A DNA stretch of 64,000 bases, taken from Vulcanimicrobiota bacterium (GTDB lineage: Bacteria; Vulcanimicrobiota; Vulcanimicrobiia; Vulcanimicrobiales; Vulcanimicrobiaceae). Under the pieces are notes generated by a model, which was given only the letters and a program-made list of their open reading frames with translations, did no database searches and was not told the origin of the DNA. Positions 6,745-61,424 of the stretch are shown here, piece by piece; within the stretch, counting starts at the first letter, position 1; each line of letters starts with the position of its first letter. Position numbers and translations under genes: made by a program. The DNA lies in contig DAIDHQ010000030.1 in NCBI GenBank assembly GCA_027459645.1, forward strand, positions 124,001 through 188,000, read 5' to 3'.

Positions 6745-7120
6745 CGCGGTTCTCGCACTAGCGGTAGGGTTCGCCCTGGCCGCCTGCGGCGGATCGAAAC
6801 ACTCGACCTCGACCTCTTCCAACGGCATCATGACCTCGCAGAATGCCAATCCCTCGCCCAGTACCGCGGCGCAGGGGCCGATGGGCGGCATGACCCGCAA
6901 CGGCGAGCCGATGGCGCCCGGAACCATTGCAACGGTTCCGCCCGGATTGAATTGCGGCGCGGTGCGCGCGGTGTGGGTTAATACCAAGACGCGCGTCTAT
7001 CACGAACCGAACGACCCGTACTACGGACGCACGAAGCACGGCCAGTACATGTGTCCGTCGGATGCAAAAGCCAAGGGTTATCACAAGGCCGGCGCGCACG
7101 CCAAGCATCATCACAAGTAA
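6731..7120 (+). CDS. Small lipoprotein of unknown function
   Basis: A 129-residue protein with a lipoprotein signal peptide: hydrophobic stretch [14 protein letters not shown] with a lipobox cysteine at about residue 19. A Ser/Thr-rich linker follows, then a short conserved-looking C-terminal module ([18 protein letters not shown], then [17 protein letters not shown]) and a His/Lys-rich tail. Such YH...YYG...KYM...GYH modules occur in small exported bacterial proteins of unknown role. The GTG start lies 14 bases inside the end of the preceding gene and is preceded by AAAGGAG. It converges on the next gene with a 10-base overlap. The His-rich tail might bind metal, but that is speculation. Confidence 0.75.
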
Positions 7121-7902
7121 CGCCGAAGATCGCGCATAAACGGCGCAAATCGTTGATTGTTGCGCTCGTTGCTTTCGAGACCGGTATACACGACGACGAC
7201 GTACGTGCGGCCCTCCGCCGTCGTCAGGAGCCCGCCGTCGTGGCTGACGGCGCTCGTGTCGCCGGTCTTATGCGCGAAACGGTCGCCTTCGTTTAGACCC
7301 TCCGAGAGCTTGTCGTTCCAGTATTGATCTTCGAGCGCGTCGCGCAGGAGCGGCGCGTGCGGTATGCGCTCGCTCGCAATTGCCGCAAAGAGCCGCCCCG
7401 CGTCGGCTGCCGGATGGGCGTTGAGGTGCACGCCGTCCCATTGCGGATCGTCGATGAGCGGATCGGCGCCGGAAAGCTTGCGATAGAACGCGGTGCCCGC
7501 GAGGCCGAAGCGGGTGCGCGCGACCTCGGTTGCGCGTTCGCGTCCGATCAGATCGAAGAGCACGTTCGTCGCCACGTTGTCGGAACGCGAGACGGCTAGG
7601 CGGCACAACTCCTCGAGCGTTGCCCGGTACCCGGGTTCCAGCGGCGACGGCGCGTCGTTCACCGTCATATTGGCGGCGCCGACCTCGACCCGATACGCCA
7701 GGGAGAAGCGGCCGTCCGCGACCTCGGCCAGCGCTACGGCCACCAGCGGCACCTTGATCATGCTCGCCGGGTATATGGAGGCGTCGTCCCGGAAGCTCGC
7801 GTGCCCGCCACGGCCGTCGAGTGGCCGGACGACGACGGCCGCCTCGGCAAGCCCGTGCCGGTCCGCGAGGCGGGCAAGAAGATCCGCCGTCAGCGCATCC
7901 AT
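7111..7902 (-). CDS. Class A beta-lactamase-like serine hydrolase
   Basis: A 263-residue protein with the three penicillin-recognising motifs: S47-M-I-K50 (active-site serine and lysine), S107-D-N109 and K212-T-G214. The spacing matches class A beta-lactamases and related acyl-serine hydrolases. There is no clear signal peptide at the chosen ATG, so either it acts in the cytosol or the true start lies upstream. It could hydrolyse beta-lactams, but cytosolic paralogues often act on other amides or esters, so resistance should not be assumed. It is transcribed away from the efflux operon, and its 5' end borders the operator region described at 7936-8001. Confidence 0.75.
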
Positions 7903-7935
7903 CCGGTCCCTCGCCCGGTCCTGGGAACCGCTATC

Positions 7936-8001
7936 TGCAAGTGGGTACTTGCACGCGTGCCGGCTCTATGGTACGGTTGTGCGTGCAAGTACACACTTGC
8001 G
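7936..8001 (+). promoter_or_regulatory. Two palindromic TetR-type operators and promoter region
   Basis: TGCAAGTGGGTACTTGCA (7936-7953) is a perfect 7-base inverted repeat with a 4-base spacer. A second copy, TGCAAGTACACACTTGCG (7984-8001), has the same core arms GCAAGT/ACTTGC. Centres are 48 bases apart. A possible promoter, TTGCAC (7949-7954) and TACGGT (7972-7977) with a 17-base spacer, overlaps the first operator; TAAAAT at 8003-8008 is an alternative -10. The TetR gene two reading frames downstream is the obvious ligand, which would make the operon autoregulated. Binding is inferred, not shown. Confidence 0.75.
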
Positions 8002-8012
8002 TTAAAATACCG

Positions 8013-8702
8013 ATGAAAATTTCTCAACTGTTTGTCGCCGTCCTCGCCTATTTGCTGCTGACTGCCGGGTTGGCCGCCTTGGCGCAAGCCGTCGGATCCG
8101 CCGCGCCCGCGCATGCCTCGCCGGCGCCCGCGCCGGAGGTCATCGCCCGCATGCTCCACCGCAACGGGGCGATGAAGTCCTACACCGCGCGCGTCCACGT
8201 CAACCTCCACATGCTCAACTTCCCGTTTCTCGCGCCCGTGCTCGACGGCACGTCGTACTATAAGCAGCCCGATAAGTATGCGGTCGTCTTCGATCGCGTT
8301 CCGGGTTATGCCAAGGGGTTTCAGAAGCTCTTCAACGACGTCGCGGACCCCGCTTCCTGGCAAGCCGAATGGAACGTGAGCGATCGCGGCCTCGTGAAGA
8401 TTGGGGATTATCCCTCGCCGCTAATCGAGCTCTTTATGACGAAAAAAATCTACAGCACGATCACTTCGGATGCGGAAGCCTACGTCGACCCGCACAGCTA
8501 CGAACTGCTCGAGATGGTATGGAATTACCGCAGCGGCGGAAAGATCGTCATGCGGCAATGGTATCGTCAGCAAGGCCCCTATAGCTTGGTTTCGCAGCAA
8601 CACGTCGAGATCAACATTCCGCACGTGCACGCGGTCGGCGATTCGCAGTTCGGAACCTACCAAACCAACGTCGCCGTCAGCGACGCGGTGTTCAAGAAGT
8701 GA
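8013..8702 (+). CDS. Exported LolA-like/outer-membrane-lipoprotein-sorting-like protein
   Basis: A 229-residue protein, first gene of the efflux operon. It has a signal peptide (KISQLFVAVLAYLLLTAG) with a cut near APAHA, then a region of alternating short beta strands (MKSYTARVHVNLHMLNF, GTSYYKQPDKYAVVF, QWYRQQGPYSLVSQQHVEI) typical of LolA/LppX-like folds that hold lipids in a half-barrel. No cysteine follows the signal, so it is periplasmic rather than lipidated. The ATG lies just after the second operator and lacks a Shine-Dalgarno sequence. Its stop overlaps the TetR start. It could deliver a lipid-like substrate to the pump; that is inference from context. Confidence 0.6.
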   Translation: MKISQLFVAVLAYLLLTAGLAALAQAVGSAAPAHASPAPAPEVIARMLHRNGAMKSYTARVHVNLHMLNFPFLAPVLDGTSYYKQPDKYAVVFDRVPGYAKGFQKLFNDVADPASWQAEWNVSDRGLVKIGDYPSPLIELFMTKKIYSTITSDAEAYVDPHSYELLEMVWNYRSGGKIVMRQWYRQQGPYSLVSQQHVEINIPHVHAVGDSQFGTYQTNVAVSDAVFKK

Positions 8703-9292
8703 TCGAAGTGGACCGTCCCATCGATACGCGTGAGAAGATCGTTCTCGCCGCGCGGGAAGTCATCAAACGCAAAGGTAAGCGCGGCGCGACCACGCGTGAG
8801 ATCGCCGATTACGCCGGCGTCAACGAAGCGACGCTCTTCCGGCACTTCGGAAACAAGGAAGCCCTGATCGTCGCCGTCGTTAAGCATTCGTGCCCGGATA
8901 TGAAGCTGCGCGACGTCATCGCGACGTTTCACGGCCCCCTCGAAGACGATCTGATTGCGTTGGGTATGGCGATGACCGAGCACATGGAATCGATGATCGA
9001 CATGATTCGCTGGTCGCTCGTCGAGTCCGACTACGAGGAAAGCCTCTTCGCAAAAGAAGCTTGGCGGCCTCAGACGGCGGTGCGCGCCGTCGTCGTCGAG
9101 TTTCTACGCAAACACGTCGAGTCGGGCGAGCTCTCCGGCGAACCCGAGGAGCTTGCATCGGTGTTCATGGGGTTGATCTTTGCTCGCGCGGTCACGCGCG
9201 ACAAGTTTCCTGATTCCCGTCTGCACACCGACCGCGAGTACGCGATTCGCCACTTCGTCAACATCTTTCTCAACGGTACAAGGAGCAAGTAA
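8699..9292 (+). CDS. TetR-family transcriptional regulator
   Basis: A 197-residue protein with the TetR N-terminal DNA-binding domain: TREKIVLAAREVIKRKG, then the helix-turn-helix TTREIADYAGVNEATLFRHF. The remainder is an alpha-helical ligand-binding domain rich in Met and acidic residues (MAMTEHMESMIDMIRW). It sits between the first operon gene (4-base overlap) and the pump genes (1-base overlap), and two matching palindromes lie upstream of the operon. I infer that it represses the operon and is released by a pump substrate. The start is GTG at 8699; a second GTG at 8708 is possible. Confidence 0.93.
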   Translation: MIEVDRPIDTREKIVLAAREVIKRKGKRGATTREIADYAGVNEATLFRHFGNKEALIVAVVKHSCPDMKLRDVIATFHGPLEDDLIALGMAMTEHMESMIDMIRWSLVESDYEESLFAKEAWRPQTAVRAVVVEFLRKHVESGELSGEPEELASVFMGLIFARAVTRDKFPDSRLHTDREYAIRHFVNIFLNGTRSK

Positions 9293-52081: not shown

Positions 52082-52635
52082 GCGTAACGGTAGCGGAACT
52101 TGCAACCGCGATGCAGCGGTGGGGTTTTCTCGAATCGCCGCCGCCCGACGCGGCGATGCGTTGGATCGCGACGTTTTTGGAAGCGTACGGCGACTCGCTC
52201 GCATCGGCCGACGATGCGTTCTCGCGCGTCGCAGCGCTGCGAGCGGAGGCTTGCGTCATTCCGGCACTCGAACTCGAACGGCTGCGCACGCGCAACGTGC
52301 TCTTCTTTTTGGATGCGATCGGTCAGTATATCGACCATCAACCGGAGCTTCGCGGCTTGCCGCTCGATCACGATATTCCGGCCATCGCATCGGAGTTCGG
52401 CATAGGCGCCGAGGACGCGCGATACGCGGTGCGCATGGCGCTCACCGGCGCCCAGGAAGGACCGCCGCTGGAACTGCTCTTTCCGCTGCTCGGCCACGAC
52501 CGGATGCTCATTCGCATCGGCGCCGTAAATTCGCGATTGCTCCATGGCCGCGGCCTCGAACCCATCGCATTCGGCCCCGACGGCAAGCCCTTCGAGCCCA
52601 TCCCTTCGGAGAAGCCGCCGAACGAGGGGCATTAG
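52078..52635 (+). CDS. Stand-alone glutamyl-tRNA-synthetase anticodon-binding-like domain
   Basis: A 185-residue protein without any catalytic tRNA-synthetase domain (no HIGH or KMSKS motif). Its C-terminal part AVRMALTGAQEGPPLELLFP and LLGHDRMLIRIGAVNSRLL matches the end of the GltX anticodon-binding domain, where VRVALTG...GPPL and LLG+E+V are typical. The N-terminal part (DDAFSRVAALRAEACVI) fits the helical cage before it. It sits between ispF and cysE, exactly where gltX stands in Firmicutes. It is either a remnant of gltX or a repurposed tRNA-binding module. It is the last housekeeping gene before the mobile insertion. Confidence 0.7.
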   Translation: MSVTVAELATAMQRWGFLESPPPDAAMRWIATFLEAYGDSLASADDAFSRVAALRAEACVIPALELERLRTRNVLFFLDAIGQYIDHQPELRGLPLDHDIPAIASEFGIGAEDARYAVRMALTGAQEGPPLELLFPLLGHDRMLIRIGAVNSRLLHGRGLEPIAFGPDGKPFEPIPSEKPPNEGH

Positions 52636-52796
52636 CTTCGCATTCGTGCTGTAACGAGACTCGTTGAAGATTCCGCATGGAATGCGTTCCCTTCTCGCTT
52701 GCTCCATTCTAAAGTGGGCTGGCTCGGGTTTCATGGACACCTTCATAGGCCACAGCCACGGGCTGGGCAGAAAGGTTAAGCATAGCAGAGCAGCGG

Positions 52797-52916
52797 CGGA
52801 AGTATCCGCGTGAGTTCAAGATTGAGGCGGTTCCGAAGGGCGCGAAGCGGCGGCCGAGGTCGCGCGAGCGTTCGGAATCCAACCCAACATGTTGTACCGC
52901 TGGAAAAAAAGGTAGT
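52797..52916 (+). pseudogene. IS3 orfA remnant
   Basis: RRKYPREFKIEAV matches the start of an IS3-type OrfA. After an internal deletion and a frame change, the end EAAAEVARAFGIQPNMLYRW and a TAG stop follow. The helix-turn-helix is therefore incomplete and the product cannot be functional. Confidence 0.65.
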
Positions 52917-52921
52917 CTGGT

Positions 52922-53806
52922 TTGCGAAGCACACTCGATGAGGACGCGTTCATTCAGGAGCACATCGGCACGTGGAAGCTGCGTAACCTATTCTGCGCAC
53001 TCAGCGTATCGAAGTCCACCTTTTTCGCATGGCGCAAACCCCCGCCGAGCAAACGTAAGAAGCGGCATGGCACGTTGTGTCTGCATTTGGTCGCGTTTCA
53101 CGCCGGGAGTAAGGGCACATACGGAAGCCGTCGCCTGATGCGAGACTTGCGCGATATCGGCGATCCCTGTAGTCGCGCTCGCGTCGTGCGGCTCATGCGT
53201 GCAGCAGATATTCGAGGCAAGCAGCGAAAGCGCTTTCGCGTTACCACGCAGTCCGATCATAACCAGCCTATTGCCGACAATCTGCTCGATAGCCACTTTT
53301 GCCCCGGCGGAGATCGAAGCCTCGAACCAAGCGTGGGCCGGCGACATCACCTATATCTGGACGGTCGAGGGATGGCTGTATCTTGCGGTCGTATAGGATT
53401 GGTACTCGCGCCGTGTCATCGGCTGGTCGATGAGTCATAGGCTGGAAACGCGGCTCGTGCTCGACGCCCTTTACATGGCGGTCGATCGTCGCCCGATGCT
53501 TGACGCAGTGCTTTTTCACTCCGACCGCGGATCGCAATACGCCGCTACCGCGATGCAGCGCTTTCATGAACGGCATTTGATCGTTCCGGGCATGAGTCGC
53601 GAGGCCAACTGCTGGGACAACGCTGTCGTCCAGCGTTTCTTCAGCACGCTCAAGCTTTAAATAATCGAGGACGTCGCCTACGAGACGCGCGAAGTCGCAC
53701 GAGCAGCGATTTTCTCCTAGATCGAAATCTGTACAATCGCCGACGTCCGCACTCCACGCTCGGTTATGTCAGCCCCGAGCAGTTCGAGTTGAATCAGGCT
53801 GCATAA
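52922..53806 (+). pseudogene. IS3 orfB (DDE transposase) with frameshift and stops
   Basis: The first frame carries the HTH_21-like start (LRNLFCALSVSKSTFFAW, YGSRRLMRDLRDIG). At about 53280 the sense shifts to another frame with NQAWAGDITYIWTVEGWLYL, the first DDE aspartate. A TAG at about 53396 interrupts it. Then come HSDRGSQYAATAMQRFHER with the second Asp and MSREANCWDNAVVQRFFSTL with the surrounding Glu region, cut by a TAA at about 53658. Three lesions make this a clear pseudogene. Confidence 0.85.
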
Positions 53807-54049
53807 ACTACGTGTCCGCGAAACCTAGGCCACCCCAAAGACCGCGCGAGCCCTTCGTGGACGTCTTAAGAATTTAGACGGTTGGGGCATTCATACCGTG
53901 TTTGATGTCTGAAGAAGCTTATGGTGCGTGATAAATGCGCGATTCATCTATTGAAATACGATCAGATAGGCCCAGCTCCGATATAGTTTTCCGCACGGAA
54001 TGCAATGCATTCGCACAATCGTGGACCTCATCGTTATCAACGAAAACGA

Positions 54050-55418
54050 GATGACGCCCTTATAATGCTGTAAAAACGGCGGTCGAGGTGACCACCGATT
54101 CGATTCGGAAGATTGATTTTGCGAACACAATCTACGATCGAAAGGACGAACCGGTGGCCGATTACGATGTTACCCTATCTGAGGCGCTCGTGCCAGGGCT
54201 TCTCGAACAGCCGACGGCGCTTTCACAATTGCTGGAGAGCGCCCTGAACCAGGTCTTAGAGGCGCAGATGCGCGAGCATCTTGCTGCTGACCGATACGAG
54301 CGAAGCGACGATCGCGCAGGCTATCGCAACGGTACGCGGCTGCGTCAGCTCTTCGCGCGGGTCGGCCCGATTACCCTACAAGTTCCCCAAACCCGTGACG
54401 GCAGCTTTTCGACGGAGATCTTTGGGCGCTACCAGCGCAGCGAACAGGCCTTCGTGCTTGGGCTCATGGAAATGGTCGTGAACGGTGTGTCTACGCGCAA
54501 AGTCACGGAGATCACCGAAGCGCTCTGCGGCACCGCATTCTCGAAATCGACCGTAAGCCGCCTAACCGCGCTGCTCGATGAACGGGTGAATGCATTTCTT
54601 TCTCGTCGGCTTGATGCGGCATACCCTTTTGTTATCGTCGACGCCTTGTTCACAAAGACGCGTACGGATCAACGGGTCGTGAACAAAGCGGCGCTTATTG
54701 CATGTGGCGTACGAGCGGACGGATATCGCGACGTCCTTGGCGTCGCCATCGGTGATGCTGAGAGTTTTGCAACCTGGAATTCGCTCTTCGGCTCGCTTCG
54801 CAAACGCGGGCTGCACGGCGTCGACTTCGTTGTTTCCGACGATCATGCGGGCCTGATCGAAGCCGCTCGCAAGAACTTCGCCGGCGCAACATGGCAACGC
54901 TGCCAGGTCCATCTCATGCGCAATATTCTGGGCCAGTGTTCCAGCCGCATTCGCGGCGACGTTGCCGCCGCGCTCAAATCGATTTTTGCTACGACCACGC
55001 GAGCGGAAGCGATACAGCGCCGCGATGAAACGCTTGAACGCTTCGGGAAAAGCGCTCAGAAAGCGATGGCGTGTCTTGAAGCGGGCTTCGACGACGCGAT
55101 CGCCGTCATGGATTTGCCCGAGAAATATCGCAAACGATTACGGACGAACAATATGCTTGAGCGATTGAATCAAGAGATCCGCCGGCGTGAACGCGTCATT
55201 CGCATCTTCCCCAACGACGCATCGGCGTTGCGGATGATCGGCGCCCTTCTCGCCGAGACGGCCGAGGGTTGGCAAGAGCGGCTGTATCTTTCGATGGACG
55301 AATATAACGAATGGCGGCAGCAGCGAACTCCAAGCATCGCGGCATCTCAAACTGCGGAGGCGTTTTCCTAAACGACTACACTGCCCGAATCGAATTTACA
55401 GCAAAAATGGGACTTGAC
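54050..55418 (+). mobile_element. IS256-family insertion sequence
   Basis: An intact transposase gene is flanked by short related ends: GCTGTAAA at 54067-54074 on the left and its complement TTTACAGC at 55395-55402 on the right, within roughly 25-base imperfect inverted repeats. Boundaries are approximate. The right end contains an outward-facing TTGACT (55414-55419) next to the small-peptide gene. Confidence 0.75.
54088..55371 (+). CDS. IS256-family (mutator-type) transposase
   Basis: A 427-residue transposase, apparently intact. AALNQVLEAQMREHLAADRY-like start, then DRAGYRNGTRLRQLFARVG and ITLQVPQTRDGSF. The first catalytic Asp is in PFVIVDALFTKTR, the second in DFVVSDDHAGLIEAAR, and WQRCQVHLMRNIL is the mutator signature CxxHxxRN. 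The Glu-bearing end is LRTNNMLERLNQEIRRRER. It probably moves the element by copy-out transposition. The start used is GTG 54088; ATG-type alternatives further in would shorten the N-terminus. Confidence 0.95.
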   Translation: MTTDSIRKIDFANTIYDRKDEPVADYDVTLSEALVPGLLEQPTALSQLLESALNQVLEAQMREHLAADRYERSDDRAGYRNGTRLRQLFARVGPITLQVPQTRDGSFSTEIFGRYQRSEQAFVLGLMEMVVNGVSTRKVTEITEALCGTAFSKSTVSRLTALLDERVNAFLSRRLDAAYPFVIVDALFTKTRTDQRVVNKAALIACGVRADGYRDVLGVAIGDAESFATWNSLFGSLRKRGLHGVDFVVSDDHAGLIEAARKNFAGATWQRCQVHLMRNILGQCSSRIRGDVAAALKSIFATTTRAEAIQRRDETLERFGKSAQKAMACLEAGFDDAIAVMDLPEKYRKRLRTNNMLERLNQEIRRRERVIRIFPNDASALRMIGALLAETAEGWQERLYLSMDEYNEWRQQRTPSIAASQTAEAFS

Positions 55419-55470
55419 TCTGCGCAAGCGCGACATAACTCAACTACAAAACTGCAAAAAGGATTGAAAT

Positions 55471-55587
55471 ATGAATAACGTAGCGAACAATGTTGTTGAC
55501 CTTGAGGAACGTATCGAACCGAGCACGTACGGCGATGCGCCCTTGCCTGGAGTCATTGCCGGCCTAATCATTATGGCGCTCATGTAA
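55471..55587 (+). CDS. 38-residue peptide, candidate precursor or membrane-active peptide
   Basis: ATG 55471 is preceded by AAAGGA with a 7-base gap, and TAA is followed at once by a strong intrinsic terminator, so this looks like a true short gene. The N-terminal half is polar and acidic (NNVVDLEERIEP), then YGDAPLPG, and the end GVIAGLIIMALM is entirely hydrophobic. There is no Cys, and few Ser/Thr, which argues against lanthipeptides and thiopeptides. It precedes two HEAT-repeat proteins and a membrane protein on the same strand. A peptide product with modification, transport or immunity partners is possible; a simple small membrane protein is the plain alternative. Confidence 0.6.
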   Translation: MNNVANNVVDLEERIEPSTYGDAPLPGVIAGLIIMALM

Positions 55588-55610
55588 AAAAACAGCGCTT
55601 CGCTGTTTTT
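55588..55610. terminator. Intrinsic terminator after the 38-residue peptide gene
   Basis: AAAAACAGCG-CTT-CGCTGTTTTT forms a 10-base-pair stem with a 3-base loop ending in five T. It works in either direction. Its place between the peptide gene and the larger genes would give more peptide mRNA than downstream mRNA, as in many precursor-peptide operons. Confidence 0.85.
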
Positions 55611-55791
55611 CGGCGGGCGACTGAACTTCTAGCCCCATTATTCCACCTTCGAGGCGGCAGCCGCCCGCTTCGTTTGATCACAGCAGGTTACCAGACGATG
55701 CCAAGTACGTCGAACACACCAACTCCAAACATAGCGATTTCAAAAAATCGAGAGAGAGCGTCTTGCTGGAGTATCGGCTCTCGGCAAGCTC

Positions 55792-56592
55792 GTGGACGAG
55801 TGTGAAAAGCTGGTTAGGAATAGCAGCGAGAACTTCTGGCAGTGTGAGGCGCTCCTTTCGGAATTTATTAGCAGCGGGTGCGTTACCGAAGTCATTAACT
55901 ACGAACTGGAAAGAATACTACGGAGTCCTCATTACGGTCAGCCGCAGGTAGCGGATGGCGTGCTCAGTCTATATTCCTCCAATTTGCTGCGGCTAAATCT
56001 GCACGTGGCGAAGCCGTTGGGCATCACACCCGGCGCTCTTTATGGGATGACCCGAAATTGCCTAGTCGCCGTGATCGGTCCGGGGGAACTGGTCGCCGAT
56101 TGCTATAAGCACCCGATTTGCGATACCTCCGTGCTTGATCGGACCAAGTCATTAAACCGAATCGGAGAGATGCGGATCCGGCCAGGTGAAATTTTTCGGG
56201 CATCTTGCTTGAATGATGTATTCGAACTACGCGCGCCGACTGAATGTCTTTATCTTTCGCTTTCGTCGCCCGAAATTCGTAGCATTACTTGGGTCTTTAA
56301 CAGGGAAACGCTGCTTGCCACTAAGGCCCTGTCCGACAACCTTACGAATTCGCGACTAGAATACGCTCTGAAAGTTGTGGCTCACGTCGGTGATCAGGCG
56401 TCCATCGAGCCACTCATGAAGCTTTGCGCCCATCCAGTCCACTTTGTGCGATGGGAGGCCATCAAAAATGTCGCGCGTTTGGATGCGAAAATTGGTCTCG
56501 AGTTGTTGAACCGAGCGCGTAACGACGATCATCCACATATTCGTAACGCGGCAGAGAAAAGCTTGGCGTTGATCGCGGCGGCCTCGGCCTAA
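55792..56592 (+). CDS. HEAT-repeat protein of unknown function (cupin-like family without metal histidines)
   Basis: From GTG 55792 this gives 266 residues, but the frame stays open back to 55735 with plausible protein (KIERERLAGVSALGKLVDE). A better start, ATG 55698 (PSTSNTPTPNIAISK), lies in another frame separated only by an A6 tract at 55742-55747. Middle part: ITPGALYGMTRNCLVAVIGP, EMRIRPGEIFRASCLNDVFEL. The C-terminal 80 residues are HEAT-like (EYALKVVAHVGDQASIEPL, HFVRWEAIKNVARLD, HPHIRNAAEKSLALI). Layout parallels the next gene, so the two look like diverged paralogues. Low G+C compared with the surroundings. Confidence 0.6.
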   Translation: MDECEKLVRNSSENFWQCEALLSEFISSGCVTEVINYELERILRSPHYGQPQVADGVLSLYSSNLLRLNLHVAKPLGITPGALYGMTRNCLVAVIGPGELVADCYKHPICDTSVLDRTKSLNRIGEMRIRPGEIFRASCLNDVFELRAPTECLYLSLSSPEIRSITWVFNRETLLATKALSDNLTNSRLEYALKVVAHVGDQASIEPLMKLCAHPVHFVRWEAIKNVARLDAKIGLELLNRARNDDHPHIRNAAEKSLALIAAASA

Positions 56593-56626
56593 AAATGCGG
56601 TCCTTTAGCTCAACGAGGAGATAAAC

Positions 56627-57508
56627 TTGGCCTTGACCATAGATGCAACATCCGATTCGACAATAAGTATAAACGACTATCTTGATTACATGAATCGGGA
56701 AATCGCCGTCGATGATATCGATCAGATCGTTGACACGGCTCCAGTGTTTGCGTCATTGCTTCGAGACCCCACCATCGTTGCCGCTGCTATTAATAAAGAG
56801 CTTCTCAACTGGCGTGAGTTTCAACAGGAGAACAAGTACACCGCTCAGACGTTTCTGCTTGGAATTACCGACAAATTTGCCCTTCGGGCGAACGTCTGGA
56901 TGCCGCCAAGCGAGGACCCAAAGATCCGGGCTTGGGAGGAAAAGCTGTATTACTATAATGTGCCTCACGATCATAATTTCTCGTTCATGACTGGTGGCTA
57001 TTGTGGCTCCGGATACGAGACAATTATCTATGAGTATGATTATGAGTCAATTCTGGGGCTTGAGAACGAGACGGTGCCGCTTCGCTTTCTGGAGCGCACC
57101 ACGCTCCCAAAGGGCAAAATTATGTATTATCGTGCGTCGGTAGATATCCACTCCCAGATGCCCGCAAGAGAATTCTCAATTTCGCTGAATTTGTTGCCAG
57201 TTAACCCAGCCGACCGCCTCAAGACGCAATATATATTTGATCCTGCGAATCAGCGCATTAAAGAACCTGTCCGAAACTCGACATCTTCACAGTCGACGGT
57301 ATGCTGTGCCGCAGTCTATGTCGGAAATAATCGAACGAGCGAATTGCTAGACGACCTTTCAATCTCGCACCCGAACGCACGTTTTCGCAGAAACGCATTG
57401 AGGGCGCTCTCGCGGCGGGAGCCCAGCCGCGTGGAGGATTTCCTTCAGCGTGCTGCCCGAGATAATGATCCGCTGGTGCGTGGCTTATTGACGGAAGGCC
57501 AAATGTAA
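56627..57508 (+). CDS. Cupin-like plus HEAT-repeat protein of unknown function
   Basis: A 293-residue protein starting at TTG with GAGGAG 6 bases upstream. The centre has a possible metal site, YNVPHDHNFSFMTGGYCGSG followed by YETIIYEYD, then GKIMYYRASVDIHSQ with another His and EFSISLNLLPVN; the spacing resembles cysteine-dioxygenase-type cupins. The C-terminus is HEAT-like (HPNARFRRNALRALSRREPS, DNDPLVRGLL). It could be an iron enzyme acting on the neighbouring peptide or another substrate. I do not recognise the family and infer only the fold. Codon use is AT-rich relative to the chromosome. Confidence 0.65.
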   Translation: MALTIDATSDSTISINDYLDYMNREIAVDDIDQIVDTAPVFASLLRDPTIVAAAINKELLNWREFQQENKYTAQTFLLGITDKFALRANVWMPPSEDPKIRAWEEKLYYYNVPHDHNFSFMTGGYCGSGYETIIYEYDYESILGLENETVPLRFLERTTLPKGKIMYYRASVDIHSQMPAREFSISLNLLPVNPADRLKTQYIFDPANQRIKEPVRNSTSSQSTVCCAAVYVGNNRTSELLDDLSISHPNARFRRNALRALSRREPSRVEDFLQRAARDNDPLVRGLLTEGQM

Positions 57509-57530
57509 GTGCAGCCAGCGGGAGGTTGAT

Positions 57531-58430
57531 GTGAACGTCTTTAGCTTATACGTGCGCCCAATCATCGGCTTACTAGCAATATTTTCGCTTTTCCGTACTT
57601 TCATGGCTGTACGCCAGGGGCGCTTAGCGGTCAGCCGCTTGTTGGTCCCTGGAGCCGTCGCGCTATTGATGATTGGCAGCTATGTGAGCATCGTGTCTCG
57701 GTCCTTGGCGATTACAATTGCCGTGCTTTTTGACTTGGCTCTCTTGTTGCTGGCATTCCTTGCAGTGAGGCAGCCGGCTAATCCGGGCCCGACGACAGTG
57801 GAGTCTCGGATTTATCGAGCCTTATGTCGATTTTTCCCCGAGGGTTTCTCGAGGATCGTCTCGGTGGAGCTAGCGGTGATGGCTGCTGCTCCGAATGCAC
57901 TCAAACACTTCTTTTCCTACGAATCGCCTGCGTGGAATAGCTACACGGAAGCTGCCAAAATCAAAATGCTCGTGCTCTTTATTCCATTGGCGCTGGTCCC
58001 TGATCTCTTCTTAACCGAGCTCGTCCTTCGCTCTGAAGCGCTCTGGGTGCGATTGCTGCTAGTCGCTTTGTCCATATATGGGTGTTTCTGGATATGGGGT
58101 ATTTATGCGTCGATGGTTGAGCGTCGTCATGAGATTTACGGTGATCGCCTGATTGTTCACCGGGGCCTATTGGGTTCTGTGGAATTTGTAGTAGGCGAGG
58201 TCGCTTCGTGGAACGTGTTGCCTGATAAGACAACGATCAGGAATGCTCGTCGTTCCCCAGGAAAGCCCTTTGATCTTGCCGTTGGAGGTGTGCCGGCGGT
58301 GCTTTTGCAACTCCGGCATCCTGTCTCAGGTTCATCGTTATTCGGCCTACGGAGAACCGCTACTGAGTTTATCGTCCCGACAGATCGGCCGCACGAACTC
58401 GTGAGCAAGATCTCGATGCTGCAAACCTGA
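57531..58430 (+). CDS. Multi-pass membrane protein with C-terminal PH-like domain
   Basis: A 299-residue protein: GTG start with GGGAGG upstream. About five to six transmembrane helices fill residues 1-185 (IIGLLAIFSLFRTFMAV, VALLMIGSYVSIV, LAITIAVLFDLALLLLAFLA, LVLFIPLALVPDLFLTEL, WVRLLLVALSIYGCFWIWGI). Then comes a bacterial-PH/YdbS-like beta domain from about residue 195 (YGDRLIVHRGLLGSVEFVV, SPGKPFDLAVGGVPAVLL, LFGLRRTATEFIVPT). As the last cargo gene it could be an immunity, transport or sensor protein for the peptide; that is inference from position. Confidence 0.6.
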   Translation: MNVFSLYVRPIIGLLAIFSLFRTFMAVRQGRLAVSRLLVPGAVALLMIGSYVSIVSRSLAITIAVLFDLALLLLAFLAVRQPANPGPTTVESRIYRALCRFFPEGFSRIVSVELAVMAAAPNALKHFFSYESPAWNSYTEAAKIKMLVLFIPLALVPDLFLTELVLRSEALWVRLLLVALSIYGCFWIWGIYASMVERRHEIYGDRLIVHRGLLGSVEFVVGEVASWNVLPDKTTIRNARRSPGKPFDLAVGGVPAVLLQLRHPVSGSSLFGLRRTATEFIVPTDRPHELVSKISMLQT

Positions 58431-58519
58431 AGAGCGCCTTCGCAAGCAGACAGCAAACGAACAAGTCGAGTGGCCCTTGTTGGAATAATTGCGCGCAGAT
58501 AGACGCTTGTCCGTGCTTT

Positions 58520-58970
58520 CGGACCTGAATCGGGAGCCAAGGATTACTGTGGATTTCCGGCCTAAGCGGCTATGAAGGAGATCCACTATGCGAAAGAGCC
58601 GCTTCTCCGAGACGCAGATCGTGGCAATTCTGCGTGAGTTCGATGCCGGGGTGTCGACGGAGGAACTCGCGCGCAAGCACGGGGTTCACGCGAATACGAT
58701 CCGCCTGTGGCGGTCGAAATACGCCGGCATGAGTGCGAGCGATCTGGCCCGGCTCAAGCAACTCGAAGCCGAGAACGCGCAGATGCAGCGCATCATCGCG
58801 CGCCAAACCGTGAAGATCGATGTGATCGAAGAGCTGATGCGAAAAAACTCCTGGAGGCTTCCCGGCGAGCGGAAGCCGTGAAGGCCTTGCAATCGCTCGG
58901 CTTGAGTCAACGCGAGGCTTGCAAAAGCGTGAGAGCGCGCCGACGTCCGCCCCACGAACGTCCTAGTACC
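58520..58970 (+). mobile_element. Truncated IS3-family element (IS407-like orfA)
   Basis: An orfA gene with a leader similar to that of the complete copy at 59028-60220 (TGTGGATTTCCGGCC before the gene), followed by only the first part of orfB (LEASRRAEAVKALQSLGLS, QREACKSVRARR, 58848-58960). The DDE part is missing, so the copy is dead. Boundaries are approximate. Confidence 0.7.
58588..58881 (+). CDS. IS3-family OrfA protein (in truncated element)
   Basis: A 97-residue OrfA with the helix-turn-helix ELARKHGVHANTIRLWRSKY and a leucine-zipper-like segment DLARLKQLEAENAQMQRII. A run of six A at its 3' end (58850 region) is the usual frameshift signal that would fuse it to OrfB, but OrfB is broken off here. 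The ATG has GAAGGAG upstream. Without OrfB it has no transposition role, though it could still bind DNA. Confidence 0.85.
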   Translation: MRKSRFSETQIVAILREFDAGVSTEELARKHGVHANTIRLWRSKYAGMSASDLARLKQLEAENAQMQRIIARQTVKIDVIEELMRKNSWRLPGERKP

Positions 58971-59039
58971 AAAGCGCAATGCGATGCGTATTGGGCAGCG
59001 CGTTTGACGCAGATTGCGCAAGGGGCTTGAGCCCATTTC

Positions 59040-59885
59040 CTAATCCATCAGCAATTGTGGGGTGAGTTGTTTTTGCGTTTCGGCGAACTCTTTCGGTGTG
59101 AGGTAGTTTAGCGACGAGTGCGGGCGAACCTCGTTGTAGTCGATGAGCCATGCGCCGGCGCCGTCGCGCAGCTGGGGTAGAGTCCAAAAAGCTTGCGCAT
59201 TGAGAAACTCGTCCCGGACGCGAGCGTTGAACGATTCGATCCAAGCATTTTGAGCGGGCTTGCCGGGATCGATGAAATGCAGCAAGACGTTATGATCTAT
59301 CGACCATTGCAGCATTGCGCCGGCGACGTTCTCGGGCCCGTTGTCGACGCGAAGGCGAGTAGGATATCCCCGGATCTCTGCAATCTCGTCGAGCGTTCGA
59401 ATAACGCGTCGACTGGTGAGCGAGAAGTCCGGATCGAGCGCGAGCCCTTCGCGACTGAATCGGTCCTCGATCGTCAACAGGCGGACTTTCCGTCGCGTCA
59501 TTAGCAACTCGTGCATGAAGTCCAACCCCCATTCTTCGTTGAGCTTCGTCGGTGCGGGTGAGACATAACCACGGGCAAGTCGTACGCGTCGTTTCTTGCG
59601 CGGCCGGACTTGCAATCCCTCAGCGCAGTACAAACGGCGCAGGCGCTTGTGGTTCATCACGAGGCCTTCACGCTTGAGCAGAATTCTGAGCCGCCGCCAT
59701 CCGAATCTCGGTCGCTCTTGCGCGATACAACGCAACCGATCGCGGATGTGGTCGTCGCCGGGCCGTTTGCGTGGTTTATATCGCATCGTTGGCCGAGGAC
59801 AGGCGGCAAGCCGGCAGGCTTGCCGCTCGCTGAGCCCCTCGGCTTCGAGTGCCCTCACCGCTTCTTTTCGCGCTGAGGGCCCCAC
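59040..59885 (-). CDS. IS3-family OrfB transposase
   Basis: A 281-residue DDE transposase that looks intact: ACRLAACPRPTMRYKPRKR and GWRRLRILLKREGLVMNHKR form the HTH_21 part, NEEWGLDFMHELLMTRRK holds the first Asp, TRLRVDNGPENVAGAMLQW the second, and GKPAQNAWIESFNARVRDE the Glu. It is expressed with OrfA as a fusion by a -1 shift at the A6 run (plus-strand T6, 59889-59894). Confidence 0.92.
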   Translation of the reverse strand: MGPSARKEAVRALEAEGLSERQACRLAACPRPTMRYKPRKRPGDDHIRDRLRCIAQERPRFGWRRLRILLKREGLVMNHKRLRRLYCAEGLQVRPRKKRRVRLARGYVSPAPTKLNEEWGLDFMHELLMTRRKVRLLTIEDRFSREGLALDPDFSLTSRRVIRTLDEIAEIRGYPTRLRVDNGPENVAGAMLQWSIDHNVLLHFIDPGKPAQNAWIESFNARVRDEFLNAQAFWTLPQLRDGAGAWLIDYNEVRPHSSLNYLTPKEFAETQKQLTPQLLMD

Positions 59886-60148
59886 CCGTTTTTTCGAATT
59901 ACCTCGGACATCGCACGGATTTCGAGCGCCTGTCGCGCGATGATCCGCTCCATCTGCGTGTTCTCGGATTCGAGTTCTTTCAGGCGCGTAAGATCGCTGA
60001 CGTCGAGGCCGCCGTACTTGCTGCGCCAGAGGCGGATCGTATTTACGTGAACGCCATGCTTACGAGCGAGTTCGACGGCGGGTCGGCCTGCATCGAGCTC
60101 TTGAAGGATCGCGACGATTTGCGCCTCGGTGTAGCGTCGCTTGCGCAT
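59855..60148 (-). CDS. IS3-family OrfA
   Basis: A 97-residue helix-turn-helix protein, MRKRRYTEAQIVAILQEL at its start and ELARKHGVHVNTIRLWRSKY as the HTH. It overlaps OrfB by 31 bases. The ATG used matches the neighbouring truncated copy and has AAGGAG upstream; the open frame reaches 60196 but the extra residues lie in the untranslated leader of the element. Confidence 0.9.
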   Translation of the reverse strand: MRKRRYTEAQIVAILQELDAGRPAVELARKHGVHVNTIRLWRSKYGGLDVSDLTRLKELESENTQMERIIARQALEIRAMSEVIRKNGWGPQREKKR

Positions 60149-60325
60149 GCGGGTCTCCTTTGTTGGCCATCTTGGCCGGAAACCCACAATTCCCATTGGA
60201 CTAGATTCCGGGGCTCAAACCCATCTGGTATATTTGTTGCGCCATGCTTTACGCATTGGTGGCGAGAAGGAAACTTTGCGGAAGCGAGAATCCAGCGCGG
60301 TGTGGTGAGCCGATCTCTCCTTACG

Positions 60326-60517
60326 TTATGGGAGGAAGAAGATGGCTTCGACGGGCTCTTTGAAGAGCGCCGCGATCTTTAATGCGATGGGAAGGCTCGG
60401 ATAAAAACGCTCGCTTTCGATCGAAATTATGGCCTGACGCGACACGCCGAGCGCGCTGCCAAGCTCTTGTTGCGTCAGCCCTTGTTCCTGGCGCAAGGCA
60501 CGCACTCGGTTCTTCAT
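60326..60517 (-). CDS. Xre/Cro-type helix-turn-helix regulator
   Basis: A 63-residue single-domain HTH protein, MKNRVRALRQEQGLTQQELG at the start, then ALGVSRQAIISIESERFYPS and a hydrophobic end KIAALFKEPVEAIFFLP. This is the YozG-like group of tiny DNA-binding regulators. Its ATG overlaps the stop of an upstream 32-residue frame as ATGA. Two direct repeats at the promoter (60629-60661) are likely its binding sites, which would make it autoregulated. No kinase, toxin or phage gene is beside it, so its other targets are unknown; the adjacent mobile cargo is a candidate. Confidence 0.9.
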   Translation of the reverse strand: MKNRVRALRQEQGLTQQELGSALGVSRQAIISIESERFYPSLPIALKIAALFKEPVEAIFFLP

Positions 60518-60612
60518 CGATTCCTTAGGCGCACAAATGCGAGCAGGGCGATCCGCCAGAATGCCGACGTCGCACGCCAGCGCAGCACGATGTTTTCTTG
60601 GCGCGGGTCCAT
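60514..60612 (-). CDS. 32-residue leader ORF before the Xre gene
   Basis: ATG 60612 to TGA 60514, overlapping the Xre start as ATGA. The product begins MDPRQENIVLRWRATSAFWR and ends in a short hydrophobic stretch IALLAFVRLRNR. The promoter -10 box ends only six bases before this ATG, so the mRNA is predicted to be leaderless. In related operons a small membrane protein precedes such an Xre gene, and this may be a shortened version. Its function is unknown. Confidence 0.5.
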   Translation of the reverse strand: MDPRQENIVLRWRATSAFWRIALLAFVRLRNR

Positions 60613-60661
60613 AGGATGAGTGTAGAGTGAACCTTACATCGTGTCAAGCGAACCTTACATC
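60613..60661 (-). promoter_or_regulatory. Strong promoter with two direct-repeat operator sites for the Xre operon
   Basis: On the minus strand TTGACA (plus 60642-60647), a 17-base spacer and TACACT (plus 60619-60624) form a near-consensus sigma-70 promoter. GATGTAAGGTTC occurs twice (plus 60629-60640 and 60650-60661), exactly 21 bases apart, that is two helical turns. One copy fills the spacer and the other lies just upstream of the -35, an ideal layout for repression by the Xre protein. Confidence 0.75.
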
Positions 60662-60740
60662 AAGCGCGCCCGCATTTCTCCAAAGCGTAGGACGACCGGT
60701 CGTAACCCGCGCTTGCGCCGGGGCGTTAAGATAGACGAAC

Positions 60741-61424
60741 ATGCCGAACCCGGTCCAAACGTTTCTGAGCGATCTCCGTGCCCCACTCGACCGCGACCCC
60801 GCGGCGCGAAGCTGGGTAGACGTCGTGCTGTCCTATCCCGGGTTCCACGCGATCACGGGCTATCGCATCTTTCACGCGCTCCATCGCGCGCGGGTCCCTG
60901 TGCTGCCGCGTTGGCTCTCCCACGTCACGCGCTTTCTGACCGGCATCGAGATTCATCCGGGGGCGACGATCGGGCAGTCGGTGTTCATCGATCACGGCAT
61001 GGGTGTCGTCATCGGCGAGACGGCCGAAGTCGGCGACGGCTGCACGATCTATCAGGGCGTGACGCTGGGCGGCACGAGCCTGCAACGGACCAAGCGCCAT
61101 CCGACGCTCGGGAAGAACGTGACGGTGGGTGCGAACGCATCGGTCATCGGCGCGATCGTTCTCGGTGATAATTCCCGCGTCGGCAGCGGTTCCGTCGTCG
61201 TTCGCGACGTACCGGCCGATGCGACGGTTGTCGGAATTCCGGCGCACGTCGTCGCGCTGGACGGCAAACCCGTGCGGCTCGTGCCGGATCGGCCTCGCGT
61301 CGACATGCCCGATCCAAACGAAAGTGCGATCAACGAACTCTCTCGCCGCCTCGCCTCGCTCGAGAAACGCGTCGAGCAGGTTGAAGACAACGACGGCGAA
61401 GAGACGTGGTCGTGGGTAATCTAG
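60741..61424 (+). CDS. cysE: Serine O-acetyltransferase
   Basis: Makes O-acetylserine for cysteine synthesis. A 227-residue CysE: PGFHAITGYRIFHALHRARV in the N-terminal helical part, then a left-handed beta helix with GIEIHPGATIGQSVFIDHG, MGVVIGETAEVGDGCTIYQG, GVTLGGTSLQRTKRHPTLG, and a C-terminal coiled-coil-like tail (RRLASLEKRVEQVEDN). It resumes the conserved ispF-gltX-cysE-cysS order on the far side of the mobile insertion. A TTAAGAT 10 bases before its ATG could serve as a new -10 box. Overlaps cysS. Confidence 0.95.
   Translation: MPNPVQTFLSDLRAPLDRDPAARSWVDVVLSYPGFHAITGYRIFHALHRARVPVLPRWLSHVTRFLTGIEIHPGATIGQSVFIDHGMGVVIGETAEVGDGCTIYQGVTLGGTSLQRTKRHPTLGKNVTVGANASVIGAIVLGDNSRVGSGSVVVRDVPADATVVGIPAHVVALDGKPVRLVPDRPRVDMPDPNESAINELSRRLASLEKRVEQVEDNDGEETWSWVI

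Follow-up and report, generated by a model that had tools for sequence, protein, structure and literature searches.

A short peptide gene beside two homologous HEAT-repeat proteins in a Vulcanimicrobiota insertion: a candidate RiPP-like system

The peptide cassette and its insertion

The window analysed here, a 64,000-nucleotide stretch of a Vulcanimicrobiota genome, carries a run of four forward-strand genes that opens with a putative 38-residue precursor peptide, MNNVANNVVDLEERIEPSTYGDAPLPGVIAGLIIMALM, followed by two HEAT-repeat proteins, which we call A and B, and a membrane protein. The features below are given in window coordinates.

52612-60750, no strand: IS-rich insertion with cargo, 8.1 kb, absent from sister genomes
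54088-55371, +: Mutator/IS256-family transposase of the upstream flank (Pfam Transposase_mut, 401 bits)
55460-55463, +: AGGA ribosome-binding site of the peptide gene, seven bases 5' of the ATG (from sequence)
55471-55587, +: putative precursor peptide, 38 aa, ATG at 55471 and stop codon at 55585-55587
55588-55610, +: intrinsic terminator of the peptide gene, a 10-bp stem with a T tail, beginning at the stop codon (direct folding)
55792-56592, +: protein A, a HEAT protein and homologue of B without the putative metal-ligand histidines; GTG start uncertain
56627-57508, +: protein B, a putative 3-His metalloenzyme; HEAT repeats at its C-terminus, TTG start preceded by GAGGAG
56966-56974 and 57149-57151, +: stretch containing the codons of B residues H114 and H116, and codon of H175
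57531-58430, +: multi-helix membrane protein, with relatives elsewhere in the phylum and absent from the other seven A-B loci
58588-60196: IS3-type genes, orfA 58588-58881 (+), orfB 59040-59885 (-) and orfA 59855-60196 (-), by ORF reading

In three sister genomes, one of the same genus as the window (G088) and two of the same family (G033 and G037), collinearity with the window runs to about 52.6 kb (in G037, to 52.1 kb) and resumes at about 60.75 kb, with only tens of bases at the site itself. The roughly 8.1-kb block of IS elements with its cargo is therefore read as an insertion in the window's genome. It adjoins a cysE-like and cysS-like gene pair, and its IS3-type region has 223-nt inverted arms. 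G+C content is 51-52% over 56-58 kb, compared to about 60-67% across most of the window. The original prediction, made from the sequence of this stretch, had placed four genes on one strand within low-G+C cargo between insertion sequences, and this layout holds, with the Mutator/IS256 element upstream and the IS3-type element downstream.

The same prediction had credited the short gene with a good ribosome-binding site and a terminator, both of which are present. A simple terminator scanner missed the hairpin at 55588-55610 that direct folding reveals, perhaps due to the stem running into the T tail. In dinucleotide shuffles of the 420-bp gap between the transposase gene and A (55372-55791), a same-strand ORF of 30-70 residues with a ribosome-binding site arose in 6% of cases, while ORF, ribosome-binding site, and terminator together arose in none of 2000. 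The peptide gene is present in a single copy in its genome, and its product contains no Cys. No close homologue of the peptide was found, the exact L[DN][EA]L motif described below is absent from it, and neither an exporter nor a protease gene was found adjacent within the cassette.

HEAT repeats form the C-terminal end of both A and B (Pfam HEAT_2, with E 4e-7 in A and, in B, E 4e-5, a match that falls short of the curated cut-off). The two proteins are homologous through the greater part of their sequence (hhalign 96.5%, E 9e-10, 231 columns), so that the parallel layout ascribed to them is correct. The window's A is slightly short at its N-terminus. Beyond the HEAT repeats, neither protein has a significant match in Pfam, NCBIfam, PADLOC, or PDB sequences, and no MNIO (DUF692), lanthipeptide, YcaO, or radical-SAM enzyme was recognised among A, B, and the membrane protein with Pfam and NCBIfam. 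A role in anti-phage defence is unsupported, as the PADLOC models gave nothing stronger than weak generic HEAT matches, and these to a single A relative. AlphaFold models built from two-row alignments (window and L002 sequences only) were unusable for B (pLDDT 37) and good only in the HEAT part for A.

Relatives of the membrane protein, 25-30% identical, are found in six other Eremiobacterota-type genomes and, so far as the ORFs there are readable, none has A, B, or RiPP genes nearby. Multi-helix membrane proteins that end in a PH-like stretch (window 57531-58430 and loci L028-L034) are scattered in the window's family and have no Pfam match; the PH-tailed membrane protein originally described stands as a multi-helix protein with a PH-like stretch, its PH domain being without a Pfam counterpart. 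We reject it as a member of the peptide system, since its relatives are unlinked to A, B, and RiPP genes and the other seven A-B loci lack it. It is probably a passenger, cargo of the same insertion, though a role in immunity or export is conceivable.

Occurrence of A-B pairs and their peptides

Our survey recovered eight A-B pairs: two in Eremiobacterota-type genomes, four in Flavobacteriaceae-type genomes, and two on gammaproteobacterial plasmids, one of Alteromonas and one of Vibrio. Scanning bacterial genomes with B identified a relative on a contig of an uncultured Bizionia (L002; 36% identity over residues 1-287), and the 397 genomes scanned from the family of that genome contributed three more B loci (G896, G730, and G770). 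Further sampling of the class and order of the Bizionia genome, and of the family of G770, gave no new true B. Among 149 genomes of the window's phylum, B occurs only in the window's genome and in G095, a family relative, and full-length A occurs in the same two. Plasmid searches returned Alteromonas stellipolaris CP013927.1 and, weakly, Vibrio sp. ED002 NZ_CP080241.1. No B relative was found in the viral contigs scanned, nor any relative of the Alteromonas B (L004) in the phage collection. Two other Bacteroidota-type genomes hold distant stand-alone B relatives of 323-330 residues (L017, 561-1553; L018, 5697-6668 on the minus strand) with IHHHNN...FFGSGYES and WEPH motifs, one of them inside a glycosyltransferase cluster; these are weak hits without A or an obvious peptide and were left out of the count of eight.

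When the eight B proteins are aligned, every one of them keeps H114, H116, and H175 (8/8); G124, G127, G129, Y130, Q177, P179, and S184 are likewise invariant. The triad histidines are not kept in A. The HDH motif and later histidine that had been noticed in one of the HEAT proteins are thus those of B, and A, homologous to B with the triad missing, is the expected paralogue without these histidines. Strict conservation of the HxH...H pattern in B alone points to catalysis, and B is a probable 3-His metal-dependent enzyme. The more specific proposal of a cupin-type iron enzyme has evidence at the level of motifs and is at most suggestive.

Peptide genes adjoin A-B at all eight loci, one or two at each, encoding 38-59 residues. 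The original prediction had suggested examining the neighbours of A and B homologues for such an ORF; neither a regular lack of a small ORF beside them nor loss of the frame at related loci was seen. The Flavobacterial loci are minimal, consisting of peptide, A, and B only, with the peptide gene directly upstream of A, while in Vibrio and G095 it follows B. The Flavobacterial peptides are MQNEHKFRLDELSAPVSPQVSAESSSMSVIDVTTLLLGLIL (L002 and L055), MQSKHKFRLDELSAPVSPQVSAESSSMSIVDLTTLLLGLVL (L056), and MKQKIRLNELETPVFSNSSEFSDTADPVVLGSLAIIAAVSVATWVID (L057). Between L002 and L055 the peptide frame shows 5 synonymous and 0 non-synonymous changes, and between L002 and L056 it shows 9 and 7 (over 27.7 and 95.3 sites, respectively). 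By these counts the frame appears to be translated and selected, and it is under purifying selection. The more divergent L057 reads RLNELETPV against RLDELSAPV; RL[DN]EL..PV is common to all four, while the C-terminus differs in L057.

Hairpins lie 3' of the peptides in L002, L055, L056, L057, L004a, and L004b, most with T tails as in the window. Cys is present in the peptides L003a, L003b, L004b, and L005 and absent from those of the window, L002, L055-L057, and L004a. Several peptides end in hydrophobic segments, but the C-termini in G095 and L005 are hydrophilic or Cys-containing. The motif L[DN][EA]L, chosen after inspection, occurs in the leaders of three divergent groups with a chance probability of 0.1-1% each by shuffling; the peptides of Alteromonas, Vibrio, and the window carry no more than looser acidic variants of it. 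Between lineages, the peptides are too divergent for convincing global alignment. On the Alteromonas plasmid, genes for a MacA-like adaptor, a MacB-like ATPase, and a permease (L004, 1485-4551) lie directly upstream of two peptides, and a second ABC transporter (6905-8929) lies behind B; these are candidate export or immunity genes.

In G095, the A-B pair lies inside a RiPP-type cluster (L019, 4331-14880) on a contig of 16.3 kb (C138). The genes are arranged as PqqD-like, HprK-related, A, B, two peptides, ABC ATPase, and permease; another PqqD-like and HprK-related pair comes next, and behind it lie two glycosyltransferase genes, the gene of a lasso-type B2 protease, and that of a nucleotidyltransferase. 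One of the two PqqD-like proteins matches TIGR04353 (40.4 bits, cut-off 35), the protease matches NF033537 (41.3, cut-off 33), and the nucleotidyltransferase is NTP_transf_5, while the HprK-related proteins are weak matches below cut-off. The two paralogous peptides keep TYEPPKVIVSLDALxMITDAD nearly unchanged and diverge in their C-terminal cores, which by sequence is the leader/core pattern of RiPP precursors. No lasso C protein (asparagine-synthetase-like) was recognised, by reading and partial Pfam scans, in the G095 contig, the window cassette, or the Flavobacterial ORFs. With none recognised in G095, A and B appear to be the core maturation enzymes there, and the locus is clearly a RiPP cluster without a recognised class-defining enzyme, fitting no named class. 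Genes for PqqD (B1) or the B2 protease were not seen in the window cassette or at the Flavobacterial loci.

A possible maturation route and its alternatives

We consider it likely that these loci encode a minimal RiPP-like system, in which B is the probable 3-His metalloenzyme and A a non-catalytic partner. General features of RiPP systems are apparent in the sequences: the precursor gene lies beside putative modification genes, and a conserved leader precedes a variable core, a comparison that rests on the G095 paralogues and on L002, L055, L056, and L057 rather than on the window peptide. The A-B-peptide arrangement fits no named RiPP class tested. The undescribed peptide system originally envisaged is therefore retained as regards its linkage to a peptide, selection, RiPP context, and lack of a named class; it is more tentative as regards the cupin iron enzyme, and unsupported as regards the membrane protein.

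The terminator after the peptide gene may leave peptide mRNA in excess, with read-through yielding less A and B. Protein A would probably form a heteromer with B and help to hold the N-terminal leader, in which L-[DN]-[EA]-L or its looser acidic variant is a candidate recognition element. Protein B would bind a metal, most likely Fe(II), via the HxH...H triad and oxidatively modify the C-terminal core. In most loci this core is aliphatic (V/I/L/A/G/M), and it is often without Cys, so B would be likelier to oxidise an aliphatic residue or the C-terminus than to carry out thiol chemistry. Cleavage and export might be carried out by cluster genes in G095 and Alteromonas, and elsewhere by unlinked host genes.

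HEAT repeats are typical binding scaffolds, and their presence in A and B would also suit proteins that bind, chaperone, or neutralise an unmodified membrane-active peptide, such as a leaderless bacteriocin or a toxin with its immunity protein or antitoxin, the histidines of B then being structural or metal-binding without catalysis. The hydrophobic ends of several peptides and the minimal loci without protease or exporter are in keeping with this explanation. Yet the hydrophilic or Cys-containing C-termini in G095 and L005 fit it poorly, PqqD leader-binding proteins and a leader protease would be superfluous in G095 for a peptide that is left unmodified, the triad confined to B speaks for catalysis, and PADLOC gave nothing beyond weak HEAT matches; we regard it as unlikely. 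The chemistry could instead be that of a cysteine-dioxygenase-like thiol oxidase acting on peptide Cys or Met. Although hhalign sets B on CDO_I along some 113 columns, pairing HDH with HDH and DIH...SLN with DIH...SLH, and Cys occurs in some of the peptides (L003a, L003b, L004b, and L005), the alignment is weak, as 4-6 of 100 column-shuffled controls score equally, and Pfam CDO_I does not match B. This likeness is only suggestive, a lead and not a result. Since the window, Flavobacterial, and one of the Alteromonas peptides lack Cys, thiol oxidation is unlikely as the common reaction, and we give a thiol oxidase very little weight.

A separate question is whether the window cassette still functions. 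It is a single copy flanked by IS elements, it has neither exporter nor protease, and its A protein is slightly short at the N-terminus, all of which would fit the decayed remains of a RiPP locus left behind between insertion sequences. Against such decay, every frame is intact, the start sites and the terminator are in place, and the Flavobacterial loci are equally minimal while their peptide is selected, so a non-functional remnant seems improbable to us.

Relation to known peptide systems

Returning to the RiPP-like reading, we propose more tentatively, as a possibility that we would not yet favour over its negation, that these loci define an undescribed RiPP class. Its defining enzyme would pair two HEAT-tailed 3-His non-haem metalloproteins, a catalytic one and its degenerate homologue, in a heteromer that performs a new oxidation of aliphatic residues within a hydrophobic core peptide, and the whole would work from a three-gene cassette spread across phyla. 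No description of such an A-B pair with a precursor peptide emerged from the literature searched, many subscription papers lying outside that search. If this is correct, genome mining by class-specific rules would be expected to overlook the class, which has no radical SAM, YcaO, LanB/M, or MNIO enzyme. Apart from its HEAT tail, the B family is covered by no model in Pfam or NCBIfam. The Flavobacterial three-gene loci are small enough for direct heterologous expression.

Resemblances to known systems are partial. In a weak profile alignment, CDO_I (PF05995) and B share an HDH and, after it, a second His motif, but that alignment is statistically insecure and without a Pfam match, and A-B peptides often lack Cys. 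The cupin/JmjC-like RiPP hydroxylases PbsQ and BpmG would be comparable, if B were a cupin, in the non-haem iron tailoring of a precursor peptide (PMC12257519). However, PbsQ acts beside MNIO, arginase, and B12-rSAM enzymes (PMC12257519), whereas B has no such partners and combines a 3-His pattern with HEAT repeats. Lasso clusters contain a PqqD-like B1, a B2 protease, a C cyclase, and sometimes a kinase and a nucleotidyltransferase (PMC9266682, PMC10368454). The G095 cluster resembles them in its PqqD, B2, HprK-like, and NTP_transf_5 genes and its Y..P leader element, but has A-B where no C cyclase is recognised on its contig, and the window and Flavobacterial loci are without lasso genes. 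In MbnBC and TglHI, an iron-type enzyme and a dedicated partner act on a short ribosomal peptide (PMC8888699, PMC9016710). While A and B differ from these in being mutually homologous, HEAT-bearing, and without a match to the MNIO family, they would by analogy share the same two-protein logic of an enzyme and its partner.
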